A stretch of DNA of 34,539 bases, from NCBI GenBank assembly GCA_945276085.1, contig CALYPO010000011.1, forward strand, positions 1 through 34,539. The letters run 5' to 3'. Each line of letters starts with the position of its first letter. The stretch's first letter is position 1. Both the position numbers and the translations under genes were made by a program. The DNA is from an uncultured Gilliamella sp. GTDB lineage: Bacteria; Pseudomonadota; Gammaproteobacteria; Enterobacterales; Orbaceae. Under the pieces are notes generated by a model. The model ran no database searches and was not told the DNA's origin. It saw nothing but the letters and a program-made list of their open reading frames with translations. Positions 82 through 13,164 of this stretch are shown here, one piece after another.

Positions 82-3000
82 ATGAAAATCTTAGCTGGTT
101 GTTCTGCTCTATCTGCATTTCGTATTAGTAAAATCTTATCAACTTGCCGTGAAACATCGATTCCTGTTATTAACTTAGAAGCGCAATACATTCACTTTAT
201 TGACTTGTTTGGTGATTTAACAGCGGATCAACAATCTACGCTCGAAAGTTTGTTGCAATATGGTTCTAAAAATGCCCAAATCGATATTCAAAATAAAGAC
301 AGTAAATTACTCTTTTTAGTTACACCTCGAGCCGGTACGATTTCGCCATGGTCATCAAAAGCAACTGATATTGCACATAATTGTGGTCTATCGCACATCC
401 ATCGCATTGAGCGAGGTATTGCTTATTATGTGCAAGTGAGTTCGGCGTTAACCGACATCCAAAAAAATGAGTTTGCAGCATTAATACATGATCGGATGAT
501 GGAATCGGTATTAACGAGTTTTGATCAAGCTGATCAACTATTTAAAATTGAACAACCCGCACCAGTTGTTACCATTGATTTGTTAGGGCAGGGGCGACAA
601 GCTTTAGAGCAAGCCAATCTTAAATTGGGTTTAGCATTAGCATCGGATGAAATTGAATATTTAATCGAAAATTTTAAAAAGTTAAATCGTAATCCGACCG
701 ATATTGAACTTTATATGTTTGCACAAGCGAATTCTGAACATTGTCGACATAAAATTTTTAATGCTGATTGGGTTATAGATGGCAAAAAGCAGCCTAAATC
801 GCTATTTAAAATGATCAAAAATACGTTTGAAAGCACACCAGATTATGTCTCCTCGGCTTATAAAGATAATGCAGCGGTGATGGATGGCTCTATGGTTGGA
901 CGTTTTTTTGCTGATAACGAAAATAAAACCTATAGCTATTCTCAAGAATATGCAGATATTTTAATGAAAGTTGAAACGCATAATCACCCAACAGCAATAT
1001 CACCTTGGCCTGGAGCGGCAACCGGTAGTGGCGGTGAAATTCGAGATGAGGGTGCGACAGGGCGCGGCGCCAAACCAAAAGCAGGATTAGTTGGTTTTTC
1101 AGTATCAAATTTACGTATACCAGATTTTGTTCAACCTTGGGAATATGATTTTGGTAAGCCTGATCGTATCGTGAGTGCGCTTGATATTATGATTGACGGA
1201 CCTTTAGGTGGGGCTGCTTTTAATAACGAATTTGGTCGTCCTGCTTTATTGGGCTATTTTCGTACTTATGAAGAAAAGGTAAATAGTTACAATGGTGAAG
1301 AGGTTAGAGGTTACCATAAACCCATTATGCTTGCGGGTGGAATAGGAAATATTCGTCGTGATCATATTCAAAAAGGTGAATTTCCGGTAGGTTCTAAATT
1401 GATTGTTTTAGGTGGACCTGCTATGAATATCGGATTAGGTGGCGGAGCCGCATCTTCAATGACATCCGGTCAATCTGATGCTGATCTGGATTTTGCTTCA
1501 GTACAACGTGATAACCCTGAAATGGAGCGTCGTTGTCAGGAAGTGATAGATCGCTGTTGGCAATTAGGCGATGACAACCCTATTTTATTTATTCATGATG
1601 TTGGGGCGGGTGGGTTATCTAATGCCATGCCGGAGCTTGTTAATGATGGTGGTTGTGGTGGTCAATTTGAATTGAGAAATATCTTAAACGATGAGCCTGG
1701 CATGTCACCGTTAGAAATTTGGTGTAATGAATCACAAGAACGTTATGTGCTAGCTATTCGCCCCGAAAGTTTGATGCTTTTTGATAAATTGTGTCAGCGA
1801 GAACGCGCACCTTATGCTGTAATTGGTAGTGCAACGTTAAATAAAGCGTTGGTTTTGCATGATAATCACTTTAACAATAATCCTATTGATCTACCTTTAG
1901 ATGTTCTTTTAGGTAAAACACCGAAAATGTTACGCGATGTAAAAACCTATCAAGCTCATGGTGATAATTTTTCAACCTCTGACATTAATTTATATGATGC
2001 GGTAAAACGTGTGTTACATTTACCAACAGTTGCTGAAAAAACATTTTTAATTACTATTGGTGATCGAACTGTCACGGGTATGGTGGCACGTGATCAGATG
2101 GTCGGTCCATGGCAAGTACCGGTGGCTGATTGTGCTGTTACCACAGCGAGTTTAGATAGTTATTATGGTGAAGCAATGTCAATTGGTGAACGTGCGCCAG
2201 TTGCATTACTCAACTTTGCCGCTTCAGCAAGGTTAGCTGTTGGTGAAGCGATTACCAATATTGCAGCAACGAATATTGGTGATATCAAACGAATTAAACT
2301 TTCGGCTAACTGGATGACCGCTGCTGGTCACCCAGGCGAAGATGCCGGACTTTATCAAGCAGTGAAAGCTATTGGTGAAGAGTTATGCCCGGCTTTGGGA
2401 CTTGCTATTCCTGTTGGAAAAGATTCCATGTCAATGAAAACCACTTGGCAGCAAGATGGTGAACAAAGATCGGTAACTTCGCCGTTATCATTGGTGATTT
2501 CGGCCTTTGCTCGGGTTGAAGATGTTCGCAAAACTGTTACACCTCAACTTTGTGTAGATCAAGATAATACATTATTATTTATCGATTTATCAAAAGGTCA
2601 TCAGGCTCTTGGTGCGACAGCACTTGCTCAAGTCTATCGCCATTTAGGTCAAAAAACGGCAGATGTTCATGATGCTAAAGCGTTGGCTGGTTTTTATCAA
2701 GCTATGCAAATGCTAGTGAATCAACATTTATTGCTTGCCTATCATGATCGTTCAGATGGCGGCTTAGTGGTTACCTTAGCTGAGATGGCTTTTGCTGGAC
2801 ATTGTGGTATAGATGTTGATATTTCGATGCTAGGTCATGATGTGATTGCCGCGCTGTTTAATGAGGAATTAGGTGCTGTTATTCAAATTGCAAATAGTCA
2901 CTTAGATCAGGTAATGGCGTGCTTTAAGCAGTTTAATTTATCTCACTGCGTGCAAGTGCTTGGTAGTGCTAAAGTTGGGCAGCAGTTTATTATTCGAAAT

Positions 3001-3984
3001 CAATCAGCAGTTGTTTTTAGTGAGTCACGTTTAACGTTAAGAACATGGTGGGCAGAAACCACTTGGCAGATGCAACGCTTACGTGATAATCCGCTATGTG
3101 CCGATCAAGAACATCAGGCAAAACAAAATGAAAACGATCCGGGTCTAAATGTGTTATTAACATTCGATCCACAGCAAGATATAGCAGCCCCATTTATAGC
3201 CAAAGGTATAAAACCTAAAGTCGCTATTTTACGTGAACAAGGCGTAAATTCACATGTTGAGATGGCTGCCGCCTTTGATCGGGCTGGTTTTGCTGCAATC
3301 GATGTGCATATGACCGATTTACTTGCTGGTGACACCAGTTTAGATCAATTTAAAGCCGTTGTTGCTTGTGGTGGCTTCTCATATGGTGATGTGTTAGGGG
3401 CCGGTGAAGGCTGGGCTAAATCAGTGCTTTTTAATGAACGTGTTCGTCATGAGTTTGAACAGTTTTTTAATCGTAACGATACGCTATCTCTTGGTGTCTG
3501 TAATGGTTGTCAAATGATGTCTAATTTGAAAGATCTGATTCCAGGTGCTGAATTATGGCCACGTTTTGTGCGAAATTTATCAGAACGCTTTGAAGCGCGC
3601 TTTAGTTTAGTGCAGATTCAGCAAAGCCCTTCTTTATTCTTTACTGATATGGCGGGTTGTCATATGCCAATTGCAGTTTCACATGGGGAAGGACAGGTTG
3701 AAGTTAATGACGAAAATCATCTAACTCATTTAGAGGCAGCCAAACTTGTTGCTGTGCGTTATATTGACCACTTTGGTCAAGTTACCCAGCAATATCCGGC
3801 TAATCCAAATGGTTCACCTAATGGTATTACTGCTGTGACATCTAAAGATGGACGCGCAACAATTATGATGCCGCATCCAGAGCGAGTATTTAGAACGGTA
3901 AGTAATTCATGGCACCCTAATAATTGGGGGGAAGATAGCCCATGGATGCGGATATTCCGTAACGCTCGTCGGCAATTAGGTTAA
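82..3984 (+). CDS. purL: Phosphoribosylformylglycinamidine synthase (FGAM synthase)
   Basis: Fourth step of de novo purine synthesis in the cytoplasm: converts FGAR to FGAM using ATP and glutamine. At 1300 residues it is the large single-chain form of Gram-negative bacteria (E. coli about 1295). The N-terminal PurS-like and linker part is followed by two AIR-synthase-like halves; the first carries the glycine-rich [20 protein letters not shown] stretch near residue 315. A C-terminal class I glutamine amidotransferase domain starts near residue 1040. Its nucleophile is Cys1140 in GVCNGCQMM, with His1265 and Glu1267 in PHPERVF completing the triad. The ATG follows a short GAG Shine-Dalgarno element. 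The gene stands alone and converges on aroF across a shared hairpin. The reading frame is intact and I see nothing unusual in it. Confidence 0.98.
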
Positions 3985-3991
3985 CATAAAA

Positions 3992-4024
3992 ATTATCGCC
4001 GATAAAAGTCGGCGATAATGTGTT
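3992..4024. terminator. Bidirectional hairpin terminator between purL and aroF
   Basis: Perfect 11-bp inverted repeat: ATTATCGCCGA at 3992-4002 and its complement at 4009-4019, with a 6-base loop. On the minus strand the stem runs straight into a T-run, so it should end aroF transcripts efficiently. On the plus strand it is followed by the weaker GTGTTTTC, serving purL. Confidence 0.85.
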
Positions 4025-4033
4025 TTCAACCAA

Positions 4034-5119
4034 TTAAGCGGTTATTGGTTGTTGTTGTCTTTTTAATAAAGGCTCAGCTAACAAGCTATTCATTTTTCGT
4101 AATAACTCATCAGTGCTGTCCCAGTTAATACAAGCATCAGTAACCGATACACCATATTTAAAGTTTTCTTTTGGTTGTTCTGACGATTGATTACCTTCAA
4201 ATAAGTTACTTTCAATCATAACCCCAATAATTGAATTATTACCGTTCTCAATTTGCTCAATAATTGAATTAGCTACAATTGGTTGATTACGATAATCTTT
4301 ATTGGAATTAGCGTGGCTACAATCAATCATTAAATTTGGTACTAAACCGGCTTTTTCCATTTGAATTTCACATAATGATACGTTTTGAGCATCATAGTTT
4401 GGCGTTTTTCCACCACGTAAAATAACATGCCCGTGTGGATTACCCATTGTCTGTAGGACAGTAACTTGCCCTTGTTGATTGATACCAACAAAACGATGTG
4501 CCATAGACGCTGATTTCATCGCATTGATTGCAACATCTAAACTGCCATCTGTTCCATTTTTAAAACCAACTGGCATCGATAATCCAGAAGCCATTTCTCG
4601 ATGTGTTTGTGATTCAGTGGTTCTTGCACCGATAGCAGACCAACTAATTAAGTCACCGATATACTGTGGAGTGTTAGGATCTAATGCTTCTGTTGCCATT
4701 GGCAAGCCAATTTGCGCGATATCCAGTAATAATTTTCGTGCTTTTTTTAGACCATATTCAATATCAAATGAACTATCCATATGTGGATCGTTGATCATGC
4801 CTTTCCAACCAACGGTGGTTCTTGGTTTTTCAAAATAAACACGCATCACAATAAATAGATTATCTTTTACTTCATCTGAAAGTTTTTTTAATCGATGCGC
4901 ATACTCAATTGCAGCATCGGTATCATGAATTGAGCAAGGGCCACAAACAACAAGTAGCCGGTGATCGCGGCGTTCTAAAATATCAACGACTGTTTGTCTA
5001 GATAAACTAATTTGTTTTTCTAACTCACTTGATAATGGATAAAGTTTTTTTATTTCATCAGGTGTAATGAGCATGTGTTCATCTCGAATTCGAACATTAT
5101 TCAGTGTGTCTTTTAACAT
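4034..5119 (-). CDS. aroF: 3-deoxy-7-phosphoheptulonate synthase, tyrosine-sensitive type
   Basis: First step of the shikimate pathway: condenses phosphoenolpyruvate with erythrose 4-phosphate to give DAHP. The 361-residue protein is a class I (AroFGH) enzyme. Motifs include LLVVCGPCSIHD, RVYFEKPRTTVGWKG, GARTTESQTHREMASGLS and GFKNGTDG. The N-terminus (M-x-K-D-x-L-N-N-V) and the LATEALDPNxPQY-like stretch match E. coli AroF rather than AroG or AroH from memory, including Asn8 and the proline linked to tyrosine feedback. Tyrosine inhibition is therefore likely but inferred. An AGGAAAA ribosome-binding site precedes the ATG. TyrR-type operators overlap the predicted promoter, which agrees with the AroF assignment. 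Confidence 0.93.
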   Translation of the reverse strand: MLKDTLNNVRIRDEHMLITPDEIKKLYPLSSELEKQISLSRQTVVDILERRDHRLLVVCGPCSIHDTDAAIEYAHRLKKLSDEVKDNLFIVMRVYFEKPRTTVGWKGMINDPHMDSSFDIEYGLKKARKLLLDIAQIGLPMATEALDPNTPQYIGDLISWSAIGARTTESQTHREMASGLSMPVGFKNGTDGSLDVAINAMKSASMAHRFVGINQQGQVTVLQTMGNPHGHVILRGGKTPNYDAQNVSLCEIQMEKAGLVPNLMIDCSHANSNKDYRNQPIVANSIIEQIENGNNSIIGVMIESNLFEGNQSSEQPKENFKYGVSVTDACINWDSTDELLRKMNSLLAEPLLKRQQQPITA

Positions 5120-5437: not shown

Positions 5438-6358
5438 ATGAACCAAGGTAAGCGCTTGCTTAATTTGATGGGCACGAAGATTCAAATATGGCTAGAACAT
5501 GATGAGGTTGAACACTTATTGAATCAAGCTCAAAAAATGTTAATCGACTACGAACAGCGCTTTAGTGCTAATCGCTTAGATTCTCAATTAATGCAGGTTA
5601 ATCTTAATGCGGGTATTAAACCCGTAAAACTGCAATCTGATCTTTTTAGATTAATAAAAATAGGCAAAACTCAGAGTTTAGCAAAAAATAGTTTTTTAAA
5701 TATTGCAATAGGACCACTTATTCAAGCGTGGCGGGTTGGCTTTAGTGATGCTAGATATCCTTCTGTTTCAGAAATCAATCAGCTTTTAACACTCATTAAC
5801 CCTAATGATATTCTTTTAGATGAAGATAATTCATCTGTGTTGTTAAAGCATTCTGGAATGGCAATCGATTTAGGTGCGTTAGCCAAAGGTTATTTTGCTG
5901 ATAAAGTTATTGAATTTTTTAAACAACAAAATGCTCACGCAGCGTATATTGATTTAGGTGGAAATGTATTAACATTTGGGGCGTGTCCTTTTCATGATGA
6001 TGGATATTGGCGAGTAGGCATTCAAAATCCCTTCTTAACCAGAGGCAATGTGATTACTGTTTTGAAGATTCAAAATCAATCAGTGGTGACTTCTGGTATT
6101 TATGAAAGAACATTTAACTATAATGGTAAAACCTATCATCATATTTTTGATAGTCAAACAGGTTATCCTGTTGAAACCGATATTGAAAGTATTACTATTG
6201 TGACTGAGCATGCTATAGATGGCGAAATATGGACTACACAATTATATGGTTATTCTGCTCAACAGGTAATTAAGCAAATAAATAAAATTGACCATATCGA
6301 AGGGATAGTTATCACCAAAAATCATGAATATGCTAGTTCTAATGGTCTATTGATCTAG
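5438..6358 (+). CDS. apbE: FAD:protein FMN transferase (ApbE family), cytoplasmic
   Basis: ApbE enzymes split FAD and transfer FMN to a Thr or Ser of target proteins, using Mg2+. The 306-residue protein has family motifs: IDLGALAKGY (143-152), YIDLGGN (170-176), VTSGIYERTF (217-226) and HHIFDSQTGYP (234-244). It has no signal peptide or lipobox, so unlike E. coli ApbE it should act in the cytoplasm, where the large flavoprotein encoded at 8202 is also predicted to sit. That neighbour carries an FMN_bind domain with an SGAS acceptor motif, making it the obvious client. In the C-terminal motif, usually like DAWATAL, I read EIWTTQL (263-269), so a metal-binding Asp seems replaced by Glu263. This is a by-eye alignment. 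An AGGA ribosome-binding site precedes the start. The gene converges on lysR. Confidence 0.9.
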   Translation: MNQGKRLLNLMGTKIQIWLEHDEVEHLLNQAQKMLIDYEQRFSANRLDSQLMQVNLNAGIKPVKLQSDLFRLIKIGKTQSLAKNSFLNIAIGPLIQAWRVGFSDARYPSVSEINQLLTLINPNDILLDEDNSSVLLKHSGMAIDLGALAKGYFADKVIEFFKQQNAHAAYIDLGGNVLTFGACPFHDDGYWRVGIQNPFLTRGNVITVLKIQNQSVVTSGIYERTFNYNGKTYHHIFDSQTGYPVETDIESITIVTEHAIDGEIWTTQLYGYSAQQVIKQINKIDHIEGIVITKNHEYASSNGLLI

Positions 6359-6409
6359 GTATTTATATGATGTTACCGCGTTAACACTCGTTTAGTTTTC
6401 ATCTTTGTA

Positions 6410-7351
6410 TTATTGATTAAAAGAAGAGACGAAAAGGTTGACGAATTCTTTTTCAGCCACGCTAAGCATTTTATTTGCTGAATATGCAATGAAATAACTT
6501 AACGAGATGAATTCTAATGGTAGGGGGATCAAATTATATGCTAAATCGCCAGTTTTTCCGCAGATATTGACACTTTCCGGAATAAACGTCACCCCCATTC
6601 CTTTTTTTGCTAATTCGACAAGAGTAAAAATGTTACTGCTTTCAAGTACGATATCGGGTTTAATCTTATATTTTGCAATGAGGTATTCAATTTGTTGTCG
6701 TATACCTGAACCGTGAGACGTTAGAATAAGTTTTTCTTGCAATAATTTTTTTATAAAAGAATGATTACATTCAATATTACTTGTTTTTTTTCGATAAAGT
6801 TTAGAACTTTCTGGTATAAGTGCATAATAATGATGTTTACCACATTTATGACTAATTAAATTTGGGGATATTGTTTCAGGATTTTGCCCAATAAAAAAAT
6901 CGAGAGTTTGGTTAATGGTTTTTTCTTCACTGTTTTTGGGCATATATTCATGTAATTCGATTTTAATATTGGGATATTTTTGCATAAAAGCAGGTAGAAC
7001 TAGAGGTAATAAGTAGGTTCCTAAGCTTGGCAATACACCGATTTGAATTGCTGTGTAGTTAGTATCAGTATATTTTTGGATTTTTTTTCTAAACTGTTCC
7101 TGTTTGTTGACTAACGACGTGAGATATTCATAATAAATTTTTCCCGCTTCGGTTAACTGTAATGGGACGGTTTGTCGATTGATGATTTCAATACCTAGTT
7201 CATTTTCAATTTTTTTTATGGTTTGTGTTAGGTAAGATTGCGAGATATAAAGGTTTTGTGCTGCTTTGGTATAATTACCATGCTTAACTAAAACATCAAT
7301 ATATTGCAGCATTATTAGTGAATTAATTTTAGCCATTCCGCTTGTTTTCAT
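6410..7351 (-). CDS. LysR-family transcriptional regulator of the reductase operon
   Basis: The N-terminal winged helix-turn-helix spans about residues 10-70, including YTKAAQNLYISQSYLTQTIKKIE. The rest is a substrate-binding-like effector domain containing GVLPSLGTYLLPLVLPAF. The 313-residue length is normal for LysR. It is transcribed divergently from the FMN-reductase/flavoprotein/MFS operon across 227 bp, the usual arrangement for a LysR protein controlling its neighbour. The effector is probably the substrate imported or reduced by that operon, but this is inference. Start choice is uncertain: the first ATG is used, with AAAAAGG directly against it. The ATG at 7336 is an alternative with a better spaced but weak AAGCGG. 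Coding is noticeably AT-rich. Confidence 0.9.
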   Translation of the reverse strand: MKTSGMAKINSLIMLQYIDVLVKHGNYTKAAQNLYISQSYLTQTIKKIENELGIEIINRQTVPLQLTEAGKIYYEYLTSLVNKQEQFRKKIQKYTDTNYTAIQIGVLPSLGTYLLPLVLPAFMQKYPNIKIELHEYMPKNSEEKTINQTLDFFIGQNPETISPNLISHKCGKHHYYALIPESSKLYRKKTSNIECNHSFIKKLLQEKLILTSHGSGIRQQIEYLIAKYKIKPDIVLESSNIFTLVELAKKGMGVTFIPESVNICGKTGDLAYNLIPLPLEFISLSYFIAYSANKMLSVAEKEFVNLFVSSFNQ

Positions 7352-7372
7352 CCTTTTTAAGATTATAACAAA

Positions 7373-7394
7373 TTAGTTATAACCCCATAATTAA
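7373..7394. promoter_or_regulatory. Candidate LysR operator
   Basis: Imperfect inverted repeat TTAGTTAT-N6-ATAATTAA (one mismatch between arms), 22 bp upstream of the lysR start, where a LysR protein would autoregulate and act on the divergent operon. The region is very AT-rich, so chance occurrence is plausible. A second small palindrome, TATTG-CA-CAATA, lies at 7445-7456. Confidence 0.3.
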
Positions 7395-7578
7395 TCAGCT
7401 ATTTCACAAATATTTTTTTCTATTTTACACTAGATAACAAATCATATTGCACAATAATTAACATAATTAATAGAACAAGAATTTATTTTACCATTTTGTG
7501 TGATTAGCTAAAGAATTTGTATTACGAAAATTAAATATTAACAAAATTGTGCCGCAAGGTACTAAGTGAGGTTTTAAA

Positions 7579-8205
7579 GTGAAATTTGTTGCTATAGTCG
7601 GAACGAATTCTGATCGTTCTACTAATAGAAAATTACTGCATTTTATGCGAACGCATTTTGCCGAGAAAGCAGAAATTGAGGTCTGTGAAATTAAATCATT
7701 ACCAGCATTTAATGAACCTAAGGATAAAACTCCGCCAGCAGCAGTAAAAGAGCTATCAGATAAAATACTAGCCGCAGATGGTGTGATTATTGCTACTCCC
7801 GAATATGATCATTCCATTACCGCTGCGTTGAAAAGTGTTATTGAGTGGTTGTCTTATACTACCCGCCCTCTGATTAATAAATGTGTAATGATTGTCGGTG
7901 CTTCACATGGTATGTTGGGGTCATCAAGGGCACAGGCTCATTTACGCCAAATTTTGGATGCGCCAGAATTAAAAGCACGAATTATGCCAAGCTCGGAGTT
8001 TTTATTAGGGCAGTCGTTACAGGCTTTTGATGATCAAGGTAATCTTGTTTATGCTGATAAAGTCAAAGAGTTAGATGAATGCTTTGATGAATTTTTATTA
8101 TTTGTGTCCATTACTAATCAATTACTCAAAACAGCAAAAATTAATACAGATCAAAATAAAAAATTTAGTTGGAAACAGGCCGCAGAAGAAGGAGCATCGT
8201 TATGA
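7579..8205 (+). CDS. NADPH-dependent FMN-reductase-like protein (small subunit, HcrA/CrdA-like)
   Basis: The 208-residue protein is a flavodoxin-fold FMN_red family member. The N-terminus [17 protein letters not shown] is the FMN phosphate loop. [21 protein letters not shown] is the family PEYxxSxxxxLKxxIxWLS motif, and [20 protein letters not shown] follows. It should bind FMN and NAD(P)H in the cytoplasm. About half its residues match the N-terminal domain of the next protein, so the pair arose by duplication. It starts at GTG behind GTGAGG at proper spacing, and its TGA overlaps the next ATG (ATGA), implying translational coupling and a stoichiometric complex. The same pairing occurs, as I recall, in lactobacillal hydroxycinnamate reductase (HcrA with HcrB) and Vibrio CrdA/CrdB. 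It may feed electrons or have a structural or sensing role. Confidence 0.85.
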
Positions 8206-10658
8206 AATTTATTGGTATAGTAGGAACAAATGCTCAAGAATCTTATAACCGCATGTTATTGCAATTTATGCAAAAACATTTTAGTCATAAAGCCGAAATT
8301 GAAATATTAGAGTTGACCGATGTTCCAATGTTTAATGAGTCAGATGACCAATCTAATAGTCCTATCATTCAGAATTTTAATAATAAAATTATTCAAGCAG
8401 ATGGTGTTATTCTTGCCACGCCAGAGCATAATCACTCAATTCCATCGGCCTTAAAAAGTATCATTGAATGGTTGTCATTTAATTTGCATCCGTTTGATGG
8501 TAAACCGGTTATGATTGTTGGTGCATCTTATGATGTACAAGGCTCTTCTCGAGCACAATTACATTTACGTCAAATCCTTGATGCGCCAGGGGTTAATGCA
8601 ACAGTTATGCCGGGCTCTGAATTTTTACTGGGTCGAGCCCATCAAGCTTTTGATGAGCAAGGTAATCTTAAATCAGAACGAACAGTCGATTTTTTAGAAA
8701 GCTGTTTTTTACGTTTTTTGCGATTTACTCAAGTTGTCAATTTACTTAATGTGCCGGAAGAAATCTCGTATGAACCAGGTAAATATTGTGTAACAGCACC
8801 GGGTCATAATGGCGATTTACCTATGGTTGTTACTTTATCAACTGACCGCATTGAATCGATTGATATTGATACCGAAGGCGAGTCAGAAGGTATTGCTGAC
8901 GTTGTGTTTAAACGTATTCCATCTCAAATCCTTGAAGGTCAGACACTGAATGTCGATTTGATTTCTGGTGCATCGGTTACAAGTAATGGTGTTATTGATG
9001 GTGTGGCAAAAGCCATTAAAATGGCAGGTGCTAATCCTGATGTATTAAGGAAAAGACCAAAAGCACCAAGCGCGCTTGATAATAGTGATGCGCAATATGT
9101 AACAGATGTCGTTGTGGTTGGTGCTGGTGGTGCAGGATTATCAGCCGCGGCAAGTATTTTACAAGAAGGCAAGCGCGTTGTCGTTGTTGAAAAATTTCCA
9201 GCCGTTGGTGGGAATACTGTCCGTACTGGTGGTCCAATGAATGCCGCCAATCCTAAATGGCAAAATACTTTCGATGCTATCGCGGGCGAAAGCCATACTT
9301 TATCTGAAATAGTAGCAATTGATGAGTCCGTGATTGATCCTGAATATTTGCAAGATTTTAGAAGCTTAAAACAGCAAATTAATGATTATTTATCAGAAAA
9401 TAAAGGCAAAACCGGTTACCTATTTGATTCGGCACTACTTCATCGTATTCAAACCTATCTTGGCGGTAAGCGTACCGACCAATTAGGAAATGTAATTTAT
9501 GGACAATATGATCTGGTTAAAATCTTGACTGATGAGGCGCTAGAATCGGTTAAATGGCTTGAAAATATTGGTGTTGAATTTGATAAACATGATGTCACTA
9601 TGCCAGTAGGGGCTTTATGGCGTCGAGGTCATAAACCGTTAAAAAGTGAAGGTTATGCTTATGTTTCTGCATTGCAAAAATATGTAGAAGATAAGGGAGG
9701 AATTATCATAACCGATACGGCTGTTAAATCGTTAATTGTTGAAGATGGGCATGTGTCTGGGGTAATTGGACAAGGTTTAAATGGTAAAAAAGTTACCGTT
9801 AAAGCCGATGCTGTCATTTTGGCATCGGGTGGTTTTGGTGCTAATACCAAAATGCTCAAAGAGTATAACACTTATTGGACTGAAATTGATGACAATATTA
9901 AAACCTCTAATTCTCCGGCAATCACTGGTGATGGTATTTTGTTAGGACAAAGTGTTGGTGCGGATCTGGTTGGTATGGGCTTTTCACAAATGATGCCTGT
10001 TTCTGACCCAGAGACTGGGGCATTATTTAGTGGGTTACAAGTTCCACCACAAAATTTCATTATGGTTAACAAACAAGGAAAACGTTTTGTTAATGAATAT
10101 GGCAGCCGAGACAAACTTACACAAGCCGCTATTGATAATGGTGGATTATTTTATTTAATAGCTGATGAAGAAATCAAAAAGACGGCTTACAACACATCAC
10201 AAGAAAAAATTGATAAGCAAATTGCGGCTGGTACGCTATTTTGTGCAGACACTTTAGAAGAATTGGCCGAAAAACTGGGAATGGATGCTGATATTTTTAA
10301 ACAAACGATTGCCAACTATAATGCGTATGCTGATGCTGGGTATGATCCTGAATTTGGTAAAGATGTATTTGATTTGAAAGTAGAAGTCGCTCCATTTTAT
10401 GCAACACCAAGAAAACCAGCGGTGCATCATACAATGGGTGGACTAAAAATCGATACACAAACCCATGTTTTGGATAAATTAGGACAAAAAATTTCTGGCT
10501 TATATGCGGCAGGAGAAGTAGCAGGGGGTATCCATGCGGGTAATAGATTGGGTGGTAATTCACTAACCGATATTTTTACCTTTGGACGAATTGCGGGAAA
10601 AACTGCTTTGAAAGATATCAAGTCAAGAATGGAGTCTGGACATGGAACAACAAACTAG
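8202..10658 (+). CDS. Three-domain flavoprotein reductase (FMN_red / FMN_bind / FAD_binding_2), probable unsaturated-acid reductase
   Basis: The 818-residue cytoplasmic protein has no signal peptide. Residues 1-180 form an FMN_red domain with [10 protein letters not shown] and [21 protein letters not shown]. Residues about 200-280 form an FMN_bind domain with the ApbE acceptor motif D252-LIS-GA-Ser258. Residues about 303-810 form a fumarate-reductase-type FAD_binding_2 domain with GAGGAG at 307-312 and GNRLGGN around Arg782. Electrons would pass from NAD(P)H through the FMN groups to FAD and then to a C=C bond. Two expected active-site residues differ: GHKP has Lys478 where fumarate reductases have the proton-donor Arg (HRP), and QMMP has Met598 where they have a substrate His (QxHPT). 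Fumarate is thus unlikely; cinnamate-like or other unsaturated acids fit better. I chose the ATG at 8202 because it has AAGGAG upstream and forms ATGA with the previous stop; an upstream in-frame ATG at 8169 would add 11 unrelated residues. Confidence 0.88.
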
Positions 10659-11868
10659 AAATCTCAATCGATGGCTTGTACTGATAGCATCAACATCAAT
10701 CTTGCTTTGTACTGGTGCGATTTATGCTTTTAGTGTTTTTGCCGGTCCTTTAAGTGCCGCTAAAAATTGGAGTATGTCAGAGGTGATGACAGCGTTTGCT
10801 ATTAATTCAGCTGTTGGCCCAATTCCTATGATTTTAGGTGGCTTTTTAACGGATAGAGGATTAGCTAAATGGTCTAGTGTTTTAGGTGGTTTGCTGTTTG
10901 GACTAGGCTTTTTTCTGACGGGTTATGTGACCAGTCCACTAATGCTTTATGTGACTTATGGCTTATTAAGTGGCTTTGGTCAAGGGCTTGCTTATTCGGG
11001 CTGTTTAAGTAATACCATTAAATTATTTCCTGATAAAAAAGGTCTCGCTTCAGGTATCATTACAGCAGGTATGGGGGGCGCTGCAATTATATCAGCACCA
11101 ATCGGTAACCATTTGATTGAGCGTTTTGATGTGCTATATGCTTTCCAAATTCTAGGTTGTACCTATATAGCTGTGGTTATTGTTGCCAGTTTCTTTATAA
11201 AGGTAGCACCCGCTAATTATCAACCGCAAGGTTGGACTCAAGCACACAGCCAACAAAATGCGCCTATTGTTAACAAAAATTGGCAACAAATGCTACAAAC
11301 GCCATATTTTTACCTCATATTTTTTATGTTAGGTACTGGTGCATTTTCTGGGTTGATGATAGCTTCGAATGCATCGAGTATTGGGCAAAACATGTTTGGG
11401 CTATCTTCTGTGGCAGCAGCATTTTATGTCAGTTTATATTCATTAAGTAATTGTGCTGGGCGAGTTGTTTGGGGAACGGTATCGGATAAACTTGGTCGTA
11501 ATCGAACATTAGATATTATCTTTTCGGTAATTATTTTGGCTTTTATGGCATTTTTATTTATTCCAACACAAGCAGGATTTGCAATAGGAATTATCGCGCT
11601 TGGTTTATGCTTTGGTGGTGTGATGGGCGTGTTCCCACCAATGGTTATGGAAAATTATGGACCGATTCACCAAGGTGTTAACTACGGTATTATTTTTGTG
11701 GGTTATTCTTCAGCGGCATTTTTTGCACCAAAATTAACGGCGGATATCCTTATCAATAATAATGGCAGTTATACTTACGCATTTTATATTGCGATCGCTG
11801 TAGCCTTTGTTGGCTTAGTGTTAAACATGATTTATAAATTTACTAAACAAAGACAATCGAACAATTAA
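10642..11868 (+). CDS. MFS transporter, oxalate/formate antiporter (OFA) family
   Basis: The 408-residue inner-membrane protein has about 12 predicted helices and a central loop near residues 195-215. The N-terminal half, [16 protein letters not shown], and the helix-4 stretch [21 protein letters not shown] resemble the OFA family (OxlT, YhjX). [15 protein letters not shown] is the MFS loop motif of the second half. It starts 17 bp inside the reductase gene, with GGAG upstream, so it belongs to the same operon. The likely job is bringing in the reductase substrate. OFA members can exchange substrate for product, so acid/dihydro-acid exchange is possible. Lys364 lies within predicted helix 11 ([10 protein letters not shown]) and could bind a carboxylate. 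Specificity cannot be read from the sequence. Confidence 0.87.
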
Positions 11869-11890: not shown

Positions 11891-11920
11891 AAGGAGCCAG
11901 ATTTCTGTGCTCCTTATTTT
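11891..11920 (+). terminator. Intrinsic terminator after the reductase operon
   Basis: The stem AAGGAGC (11891-11897) pairs with GCTCCTT (11909-11915). An inner CAGA/TCTG extension closes a two-base loop with one bulged T. ATTTT follows. It lies 22 bases after the MFS gene. Confidence 0.82.
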
Positions 11921-11964: not shown

Positions 11965-13044
11965 TTATGTTCGTTCTATCGACTCAAGGACGATGTTTTT
12001 ATCAATGCCATCAAGCACTTCAACTTGTCCAATTTGTGTCGGAATAACCAGCCTGAGTTTGCCTGATAAAACTTTTTTATCGCGTAACATGTGAGGAATA
12101 TAAGCATCACTTGTCATTTGAGATGGCCGGGTAACTGGAAGTTTTGCTCTAATAAGCAGTGTTTTAATACGATCAATATCAGCGGTTGTAAATTTACCCA
12201 ACAGTTTAGCTGTTTGAGCAGCCATCAACATACCGACACTGACAGCCTCACCATGTAACCAATTACCATAACCTAATTCTGCTTCGATGGCATGACCATA
12301 AGTATGACCCAGATTTAAAATTGCACGCATATCTTGTTCAGTTTCGTCGGCCGCAACTACCTGTGCTTTGAGTTCGCAGCAGCGATAAATGCAATAACTG
12401 AGTGCTTCGACATCTAATTTAAGTAACTGGTCAATGTGCAATTCTAACCAATTAAAAAAATCAGCATCCATAATAATGCCATATTTTATGACTTCGGCCA
12501 GACCTGCTGATAATTCACGCTGTGGTAACGTTTTTAAACAATTGAGATCGATAACCACTGATTGAGGTTGATAAAATGCGCCAATCATATTTTTACCAAG
12601 AGGGTGATTAATGGCGGTTTTACCACCAACAGACGAGTCCACTTGCGAAAGTAAAGTTGTGGGCACTTGTATAAATTTAATTCCTCGTTGATACGCTGAT
12701 GCCGCAAATCCAGCGACATCACCAATAACGCCACCACCTAATGCAATTAGTCTGGAATTGCGCGTATGATTATTGGCAAGCAAAGCGGTAAGAATTTTAT
12801 TCCATGTTTCCATGGTTTTATATTGTTCACCATCAGGCAAAATGACAGAATCAGTTTTTATACCGTTGTCTTCAAGCATATGAATTAAAGTTTGTAAATA
12901 TAGTGGAGCAATGGTGTCATTGGTTGCGATTAATACACGTTGACCTGGCTGGAGTTTGAAATGTTTAAATTGAGTTAAAAGATTTTCGCCAATAGTAATA
13001 GGATAACTACGTTTTGCTAGCGCCACATTTAAAATTTTTTGCAT
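11965..13044 (-). CDS. aroB: 3-dehydroquinate synthase
   Basis: Second shikimate step: converts DAHP to 3-dehydroquinate using NAD+ and a divalent metal. It follows on biochemically from aroF at 4-5 kb, though the two genes are not linked. Visible motifs are [10 protein letters not shown], the nucleotide-binding [36 protein letters not shown], and the metal-binding region with [23 protein letters not shown] and [12 protein letters not shown] start at the ATG at 13044, giving 359 residues; E. coli AroB (362) begins at the same point before RSYPITI. A longer frame adds 26 residues with no family match. The ribosome-binding site is poor. The gene is divergent from nadE and has no aroK beside it, unlike E. 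coli. Confidence 0.95.
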
Positions 13045-13164
13045 AATAATACCCGGACAAGTCAAAGCTAATTTATTGTTGCATGTTAGCGATAAAAAAG
13101 TAGCAGTGCAACTTAGAATCATTTAAACTTATTGCCAATTTTGTTTAGTAATATTAAATTTAAT

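Follow-up and report, generated by a model that had tools for sequence, protein, structure and literature searches.

A five-gene cassette between aroG and aroB

The present analysis concerns five adjacent genes, a candidate HcrAB-type (hydroxy)cinnamic acid reductase cassette, carried by a stretch of 34,539 nucleotides (hereafter, the window) from contig 11 (CALYPO010000011.1, assembly GCA_945276085.1) of an uncultured Gilliamella sp. The proteins of this contig show 97–100% identity with those of Gilliamella sp. wkB171 and of a Gilliamella metagenome-assembled genome. An earlier note, made from the sequence of the window alone, had described at 5438–11868 an apbE gene, a divergent lysR, an FMN_red gene, a gene encoding an FMN_red/FMN_bind/FAD_binding_2 protein and a gene encoding an OFA-family transporter. 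All five are present in this interval, the last one encoding a transporter of the major facilitator superfamily (MFS), with domains called by Pfam above its cut-offs (Table 1). The overlaps that it had given for the last three genes are exact in the sequence: ATGA at 8202–8205 between fmnS and the large-subunit gene, then 17 bases at 10642–10658 between the latter and the transporter gene.

Table 1. Features of the cassette and of its two flanks in the window
Feature	Position	Strand	Description
aroG-type 3-deoxy-D-arabino-heptulosonate 7-phosphate (DAHP) synthase gene	4034–5119	-	One flank of the five-gene cassette
apbE	5438–6358	+	306 aa; ApbE (Pfam, 240.3 bits); FAD:protein FMN transferase
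lysR	6410–7351	-	HTH_1 and LysR_substrate; HcrR-like regulator of the LysR family; transcribed away from the reductase operon
Inverted repeat TTATAAC-N6-GTTATAA	7363–7382	unstranded	Candidate LysR operator, divergent promoter region
fmnS (small subunit, HcrA-like)	7579–8205	+	GTG start; stand-alone FMN_red, 125.8 bits
Large-subunit gene (HcrB-like)	8202–10658	+	818 aa; FMN_red - FMN_bind - FAD_binding_2
OFA/monocarboxylate-type MFS transporter gene	10642–11868	+	Start overlaps the large-subunit gene (translational overlap)
Hairpin with short T tail	11891–11915	+	May terminate the operon, ahead of the convergent aroB
aroB	11965–13122	-	Other flank of the cassette; convergent with the operon

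The large subunit scores 128.1 bits for FMN_red, 48.2 for FMN_bind and 233 for FAD_binding_2. Since its N-terminal domain (residues 1–191) is 53% identical to the small subunit, one FMN_red copy is fused and one free. No lipobox was seen by eye at the N-terminus of ApbE, which is apparently cytoplasmic. The transporter exceeds the cut-off of the NCBIfam model SfMCT (L-lactate MFS transporter; 420.1 bits for a cut-off of 320) and falls below those of two oxalate/formate models. A terminator common to the last three genes had also been proposed, and a hairpin does follow the transporter gene (-14.3 kcal/mol, z -3.5; 3 of 200 shuffles equally good). However, since the T run of its tail (AUUUUG) is weak and the hairpin is absent from the hits of the consensus terminator scan, this terminator is plausible rather than demonstrated. 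Consensus scans gave terminator-like matches (5 found for a shuffle mean of 4.0) and promoter-like matches (28 for a mean of 29.4) at chance level.

Conservation of the cassette and of a candidate operator

Relatives were sought with an alignment of ten core proteins, scanned against a single genome from each species, and the best 80 of 245 were kept, eight from Gilliamella and 72 from outside this genus. The large subunit is co-linear over its full length, with the same domain order, with proteins of Lactobacillales and Clostridia. Outside Gilliamella, the closest ones are those of Enterococcus sp. PF1-24 (81–82% identity) and of Enterococcus sp. JM4C and Vagococcus allomyrinae (80%); identities reach 71–73% for seven Lactiplantibacillus species other than L. 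plantarum, 69–71% for Clostridium and Lacrimispora, and 68% for Vibrio sp. MEBiC08052. The full-length Lactiplantibacillus proteins, which have the HcrAB architecture, fall in the same clade as the window protein, in agreement with the HcrA/HcrB-like architecture recognized in the earlier note.

The small FMN_red gene adjoins the large-subunit gene in all 80 kept relatives, and a divergent lysR is found in 63. An apbE gene lies nearby in 45 (24 in + orientation, 21 in - orientation), and an OFA gene is located downstream in 25 and upstream in five. The whole five-gene layout occurs in 18 of the 80 loci, including 11 of the 72 from outside Gilliamella. The invariable presence of the small gene, the frequency of divergent lysR genes and the recurrence of the full layout therefore indicate that this arrangement is not due to chance. 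The LysR protein is 42–59% identical to the products of the adjoining lysR genes of non-Gilliamella loci, the split-frame locus L056 excepted.

Split reading frames, either sequencing errors or pseudogenes, affect cassette genes in four loci (L047, 6629–9055; L099, 3951–6601; L051, 9103–10370; L056, 4842–5849). In G. apicola ESL0177 (L041, 9080–9846), no OFA match was found between the large-subunit gene and aroB and the remaining cassette is kept, so that this strain constitutes a natural test of the need for the transporter. In Lapidilactobacillus, the cassette is followed in two loci (L057, 10546–11412; L060, 10546–11427) by a gene encoding a protein of ~290 aa that is 48–52% identical to residues 1–287 of the large subunit and devoid of FAD domain.

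The inverted repeat that adjoins the lysR start conforms to the T-N11-A palindromes, the kind bound by LysR proteins. Among the 61 of the 80 loci that have a usable lysR/fmnS gap, the core TAAC-N6-GTTA is exact in 30 (shuffle mean 0.45, maximum 3 in 500 runs) and present with one mismatch allowed in 50 (shuffle mean 11.1, maximum 19 in 100 runs), counts that are inflated by relatedness, as the shuffles ignore kinship. The 30 exact cores belong to a single Clostridia-type clade (n = 19), Enterococcus (n = 5), Gilliamella (n = 2), Lapidilactobacillus (n = 2), Vagococcus (n = 1) and Lactococcus (n = 1).

Pocket residues, flavinylation and fold of the large subunit

Residues were placed by a phmmer alignment with flavocytochrome c3 (Fcc3) and by an alignment of 37 rows, 35 of them in the clade. 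In fumarate reductase, His365 binds a carboxylate, and Glu378 and Arg381 belong to the proton path with Arg402. The shared carboxylate is held, and the proton supplied, by the set Arg402/His504/Arg544, in urocanate reductase too; Tyr373 of the latter enzyme corresponds to Fcc3 His365 (PMC7921117). The window protein has Met598, Gly611 and Pro615 at the places of His365, Glu378 and Arg381, and keeps Arg636, His743 and Arg782 at those of Arg402, His504 and Arg544. By alignment, Arg636 would be the proton donor, and His743 and Arg782 the carboxylate ligands. Among the 35 clade rows, the His365 place is occupied by Met in 32 and Leu in three, the Glu378 place by Gly in all, and the Arg381 place by Pro in 34; the FAD-domain catalytic residues are conserved in 35/35 and the flavinylation motif in nearly all. 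The corresponding protein of Klebsiella pneumoniae and a Gilliamella paralogue (L017), both described below, have His, Glu and Arg at the three variable places. The pocket is thus without the fumarate His/Glu/Arg and without the Tyr373 of urocanate reductase, in support of the interpretation given in the earlier note.

The motif D252-L-I-S-G-A-S258 of the FMN_bind domain fits the ApbE flavinylation consensus D-x-x-[S/T]-G-A-[S/T] (PMC12052999), and ApbE is expected to put FMN on Ser258. Among the FMN_red-type rows, 27 of 29 have Ser as acceptor; the six clade rows that are not of this type all have Thr.

The earlier note had suggested a structure-based search of the 818-residue protein. The best fold matches of an AlphaFold model (mean predicted local distance difference test score 81.1, predicted template modelling score 0.69, 29-row alignment) are a flavocytochrome c fumarate reductase, then the urocanate reductase 6T85. 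The superfamily fold was thus recovered, but these matches of a predicted model confirm the fold, not the substrate, about which the search says nothing. In the sequence alignment, the strip of residues 590–620 is nearly identical between the window protein and the two aligned Lactiplantibacillus rows.

A fumarate reductase-like system and swapped input modules

The same genome carries on contig 12 (L017, 4388–9686) a reductase with old yellow enzyme (OYE)-like, FMN_bind and FAD_binding_2 domains, accompanied by its own apbE and an anion transporter gene. The ends of contig 116 (L016) truncate a second such unit, leaving most of the reductase and the beginning of an apbE. Both resemble a unit of K. 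pneumoniae in which the genes for a reductase, ApbE and an anion permease occur together (L036; CP125156.1, 5.37 Mb, filed as a plasmid but by its size looking like the chromosome). K. pneumoniae has a soluble fumarate reductase associated with a cytoplasmic ApbE (PMC12052999), and from its neighbours and residues the L036 protein is taken to be this enzyme. With the NCBIfam model NF005064 (cut-off 542), L017 scores 667.1 and the K. pneumoniae protein 627.1, compared to only 277.8 for the window large subunit. Since the genome has this separate K. pneumoniae-like unit, of which L017 passes NF005064, fumarate reduction seems to be already provided for.

The core of the window protein is also found with other N-termini. 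In two other Gilliamella genomes (L018, 6449–9460; L019, 7499–10534), an OYE-headed enzyme has the same core with 57–58% identity, and in L018 an apbE adjoins it. An OYE-like domain also precedes this core on two Vibrio plasmids (L033, L034) and on a Staphylococcus epidermidis plasmid (L032), and the core is found alone on plasmids of Aerococcus and of two lactobacilli (L029–L031), with a divergent gene annotated as LysR adjoining it in two of these three loci. The residue table includes six of the eight loci, and these have the common pocket pattern, save that Met is replaced by Leu in L029 and Pro by Thr in L032. Electron-input domains thus appear to have been swapped on one catalytic core. 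The three forms of this core (with FMN_red, with an OYE-like domain or without input module) would be useful for working out how electrons pass between flavins.

Phylogeny and probable horizontal origin

The main tree includes 94 core rows and was obtained by a quick method, with Shimodaira–Hasegawa-like approximate likelihood ratio test (SH-aLRT) supports only; duplicates of kept rows, partial copies and broken frames (L001–L012, L014–L016, L020, L023, L025, L026, L028, L038, L047 and L099) were left out. The Gilliamella rows are monophyletic (SH-aLRT 100) and nest among Bacilli, in a group of 16 rows shared with Enterococcus, Vagococcus and Saccharibacillus (96). The FMN_red clade excludes the OYE types, the K. 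pneumoniae protein and the genome's own paralogue, and includes the rows without input domain (L029; L030 with L031), as expected if their FMN_red part was lost. The end branches of L022 and L035, which both lie outside the clade, reach 8.1 and 6.0, respectively, and therefore the deep order outside the clade is untrustworthy. A large subunit nested firmly among fumarate or urocanate reductases was one of the results that, according to the earlier note, would refute it; the large subunit stands apart from the K. pneumoniae protein and from the paralogue, UrdA and Fcc3 lying outside the tree rows.

Single-gene trees of the small subunit, apbE, OFA and lysR (79, 63, 30 and 52 rows, respectively) were built by a quick method without mixture model and rooted at midpoint. 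Gilliamella rows form one clade in each (SH-aLRT 99–100). The sister differs between trees: Saccharibacillus in those of the small subunit and apbE (83 and 62, respectively), Vagococcus fluvialis in that of OFA (93) and, in that of lysR, a larger group (86) whose first 12 listed rows are lactobacilli. All four trees point to Bacilli and fix no single donor. The cassette was apparently acquired horizontally, with relatives of Enterococcus as the apparent source.

The distribution within the genus and the insertion site were also analyzed. A full-length large subunit is encoded by 13 of 35 Gilliamella genomes, the present one included; wkB171, wkB108 and ESL0177 are carriers. Seven of the eight named Gilliamella loci have the cassette between aroG and aroB, and in the remaining one (L039) the contig stops short of aroG. 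A set of 23 non-carriers (22 other Gilliamella and one member of a second genus, each with a completeness of at least 90%) has aroG in every case and aroB within the ~1.5 kb of fetched flank in 21, with aroB–aroG gaps of about 260 to 1400 bases; no cassette-gene match at E ≤ 1e-5 was found in any of the 23 aroG stretches. Base composition gave no sign of transfer (G+C of 31.3–38.4% for the cassette, 35.8–40.6% for its neighbours and 35.2% for the window). Therefore, the transfer is not recent or the donor had a similar composition. Among 369 genomes of the class, of each of which few candidates were scored, only that of the window has the large subunit (E ≤ 1e-80) or the LysR (E ≤ 1e-40). This result does not amount to absence from the class, because of this limited scoring and because the Vibrio locus found later was evidently missed.

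Alternative activities

In the most serious alternative, the enzyme would reduce an unsaturated monocarboxylic acid that is aliphatic, such as acrylate, crotonate or methacrylate, and the OFA protein would be its monocarboxylate exchanger. Acrylate reductases of the same superfamily exist, the transporter exceeds the cut-off of an L-lactate carrier model, and the pocket residues speak against a dicarboxylate but cannot tell aromatic from aliphatic acids. However, among enzymes of tested function, HcrAB of Lactiplantibacillus comes closest in architecture, and the strip 590–620 is nearly identical to that of two rows of this genus. We therefore regard an aliphatic substrate as unlikely.

It is much less probable that the enzyme is a soluble, NADH-dependent fumarate reductase, in spite of its best structural match and of a score over the cut-off of TIGR01813 (flavocytochrome c). 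His365, Glu378 and Arg381 are lost, the NF005064 score is about half of the cut-off, the protein stands apart in the tree, and the genome has the contig 12 unit and the partial one of contig 116. A urocanate reductase is just as improbable: 6T85 is the second-best structural match and urocanate is likewise a monocarboxylate, but Met598 and Pro615 occupy the places of Tyr373 and of Arg390 (Fcc3 Arg381), and the N-terminus is an FMN_red domain from residue 1, without secretion signal. Both identities were rejected on residues, family scores and tree. With the NCBIfam model NF053717 of the vinylphenol reductase VprA, the protein also stays well below the cut-off (179.6 for 600). A detoxifying azo, quinone or chromate reductase pair with a secondary FAD part would agree with the resemblance of both FMN_red domains to YieF/ChrR and azoreductases, but is very hard to reconcile with FAD-domain catalytic residues kept in all 35 clade rows, a flavinylation motif kept in nearly all, and an apbE near 45 of the 80 loci.

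Proposed function and significance

The observed and computed evidence (genes, domains, motif, aligned residues, phylogeny, cassette conservation and insertion site) leads us to propose, with a probability of roughly 0.8, that this locus is a horizontally acquired HcrAB-type cassette encoding a soluble, two-subunit, NAD(P)H-dependent (hydroxy)cinnamic acid reductase. This kind of enzyme is already known from lactobacilli; the host and the transfer are what is new. As far as searches show, among the matches listed from the open-licence literature, a transferred HcrAB-type cassette in a bee symbiont is new. The horizontal origin, the second (fumarate) system of the genome and the shared candidate operator go beyond the earlier note.

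Several points weigh against this proposal. Orthology to the tested enzyme is strongly implied, but from Lactiplantibacillus genus-mates and architecture. It should also be emphasized that hcr-like genes do not always match phenotype, and that cinnamic acid induced hcrB yet was not reduced (PMC10295242). The acceptor is Ser258, and replacement of Thr by Ser gave 10–55% less flavinylation in the tests cited by a review (PMC12052999). The operator core is exact in just two of the eight named Gilliamella loci, with one mismatch in the other six; it has one mismatch in Enterococcus sp. PF1-24, one to two of 8 in the seven Lactiplantibacillus rows and three in the Vibrio row. Finally, the matches listed from the open-licence literature included no account of these acids being reduced by Gilliamella.

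We infer the electron path, the substrate, the induction and the physiology, NAD+ regeneration included, as follows. NAD(P)H would reduce FMN bound by both FMN_red domains, that of the small subunit and the N-terminal one of the large subunit. Electrons would then pass to the FMN covalently linked by ApbE to Ser258 of the FMN_bind domain, and from there to FAD. A hydride from FAD would reach the side-chain C=C, with the proton coming from Arg636 and the carboxylate held by His743 and Arg782. The OFA transporter would carry the unsaturated acid and/or the reduced product across the membrane, and the LysR protein, bound to the palindrome, would switch the operon on with the acid. The guts of honey bees and bumble bees, where these symbionts live, are nearly oxygen-free and receive a diet rich in pollen phenolics. 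There, the system may act as an oxygen-independent electron sink fed by pollen hydroxycinnamates.

It seems to us an even bet that Gilliamella took a complete regulated cassette (apbE, regulator and operator, two-subunit reductase, transporter) from insect- or plant-associated Lactobacillales, that some lineages thus gained pollen hydroxycinnamates as terminal electron acceptors, as a strain-level trait at one aroG–aroB site, and that electron input and pocket evolve as separate modules. The latter view follows from the same core being joined elsewhere to an OYE-like or to no input domain. The 13 carriers among 35 genomes and the cassette-free site of at least 21 of the 23 non-carriers provide a clean comparison: if the proposal is true, carriers turn hydroxycinnamates into phenylpropionic acids and gain growth, and non-carriers do not. 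An enzyme of food lactobacilli would thereby be linked to an insect symbiont via cross-phylum transfer.

Comparison with known systems

HcrB is an FMN_bind/FAD_binding_2 protein. The L. plantarum unit lp_1422–lp_1426 includes the LysR-type regulator HcrR, HcrA and HcrB; HcrA and HcrB both contain a COG0431 domain, HcrB has flavin-binding domains as well, HcrA is proposed to stabilize HcrB, and a regulator knockout abolishes activity (PMC10295242). Two adjoining FMN_red (COG0431) subunits and a LysR regulator are thus common to L. plantarum and Gilliamella. As lp_1425 itself is outside the comparison, the link to the L. plantarum HcrB runs through the seven genus-mates (e.g., L. herbarum, L074), which have the gene order lysR-fmnS-hcrB and the above-mentioned identities over the full length. 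The Gilliamella cassette differs by including apbE and the OFA transporter gene: among the seven Lactiplantibacillus loci, OFA adjoins only in L. daowaiensis, and apbE lies beside lysR in none and ~4 kb downstream in L. herbarum. Furthermore, hcrR is located downstream and co-transcribed in L. plantarum (PMC10295242), whereas lysR is divergent in the loci compared here. The L. herbarum locus (1359–4375) also carries, beside the hcr unit, a transporter-like gene and a UbiD-like decarboxylase gene. The product of the latter presumably resembles gallate decarboxylase.

CrdAB of Vibrio ruber is an NADH:cinnamate reductase. A possible counterpart is the locus of Vibrio sp. MEBiC08052, which comprises apbE, lysR, FMN_red and a large subunit sharing 68% identity with that of the window. 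However, this Vibrio locus groups with Clostridia-type rows, its apbE is on the lysR strand, and no OFA gene lies nearby. The K. pneumoniae fumarate reductase shares an FMN_bind-type motif, the FAD_binding_2 core and a neighbouring ApbE gene, but it keeps the fumarate His/Glu/Arg, shows ~32% identity and has an anion permease gene and dcuR-type regulators as neighbours; its Gilliamella counterpart, L017, has an OYE-like N-terminus. The urocanate reductase UrdA (6T85) shares the FAD-domain fold and the Arg, His, Arg set for the shared carboxylate, but is periplasmic, has another electron input and carries a Tyr373 that is absent from the window protein (PMC7921117). The OYE-headed relatives (L018, L019, L032–L034) share the core, with 55–59% identity over about residues 173–806, and L018, L032 and L033 have the same pocket residues, save Thr at the Arg381 place in L032. 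They differ by the entry of NAD(P)H, an OYE-like domain instead of FMN_red, and by an acceptor that is Thr, not Ser.

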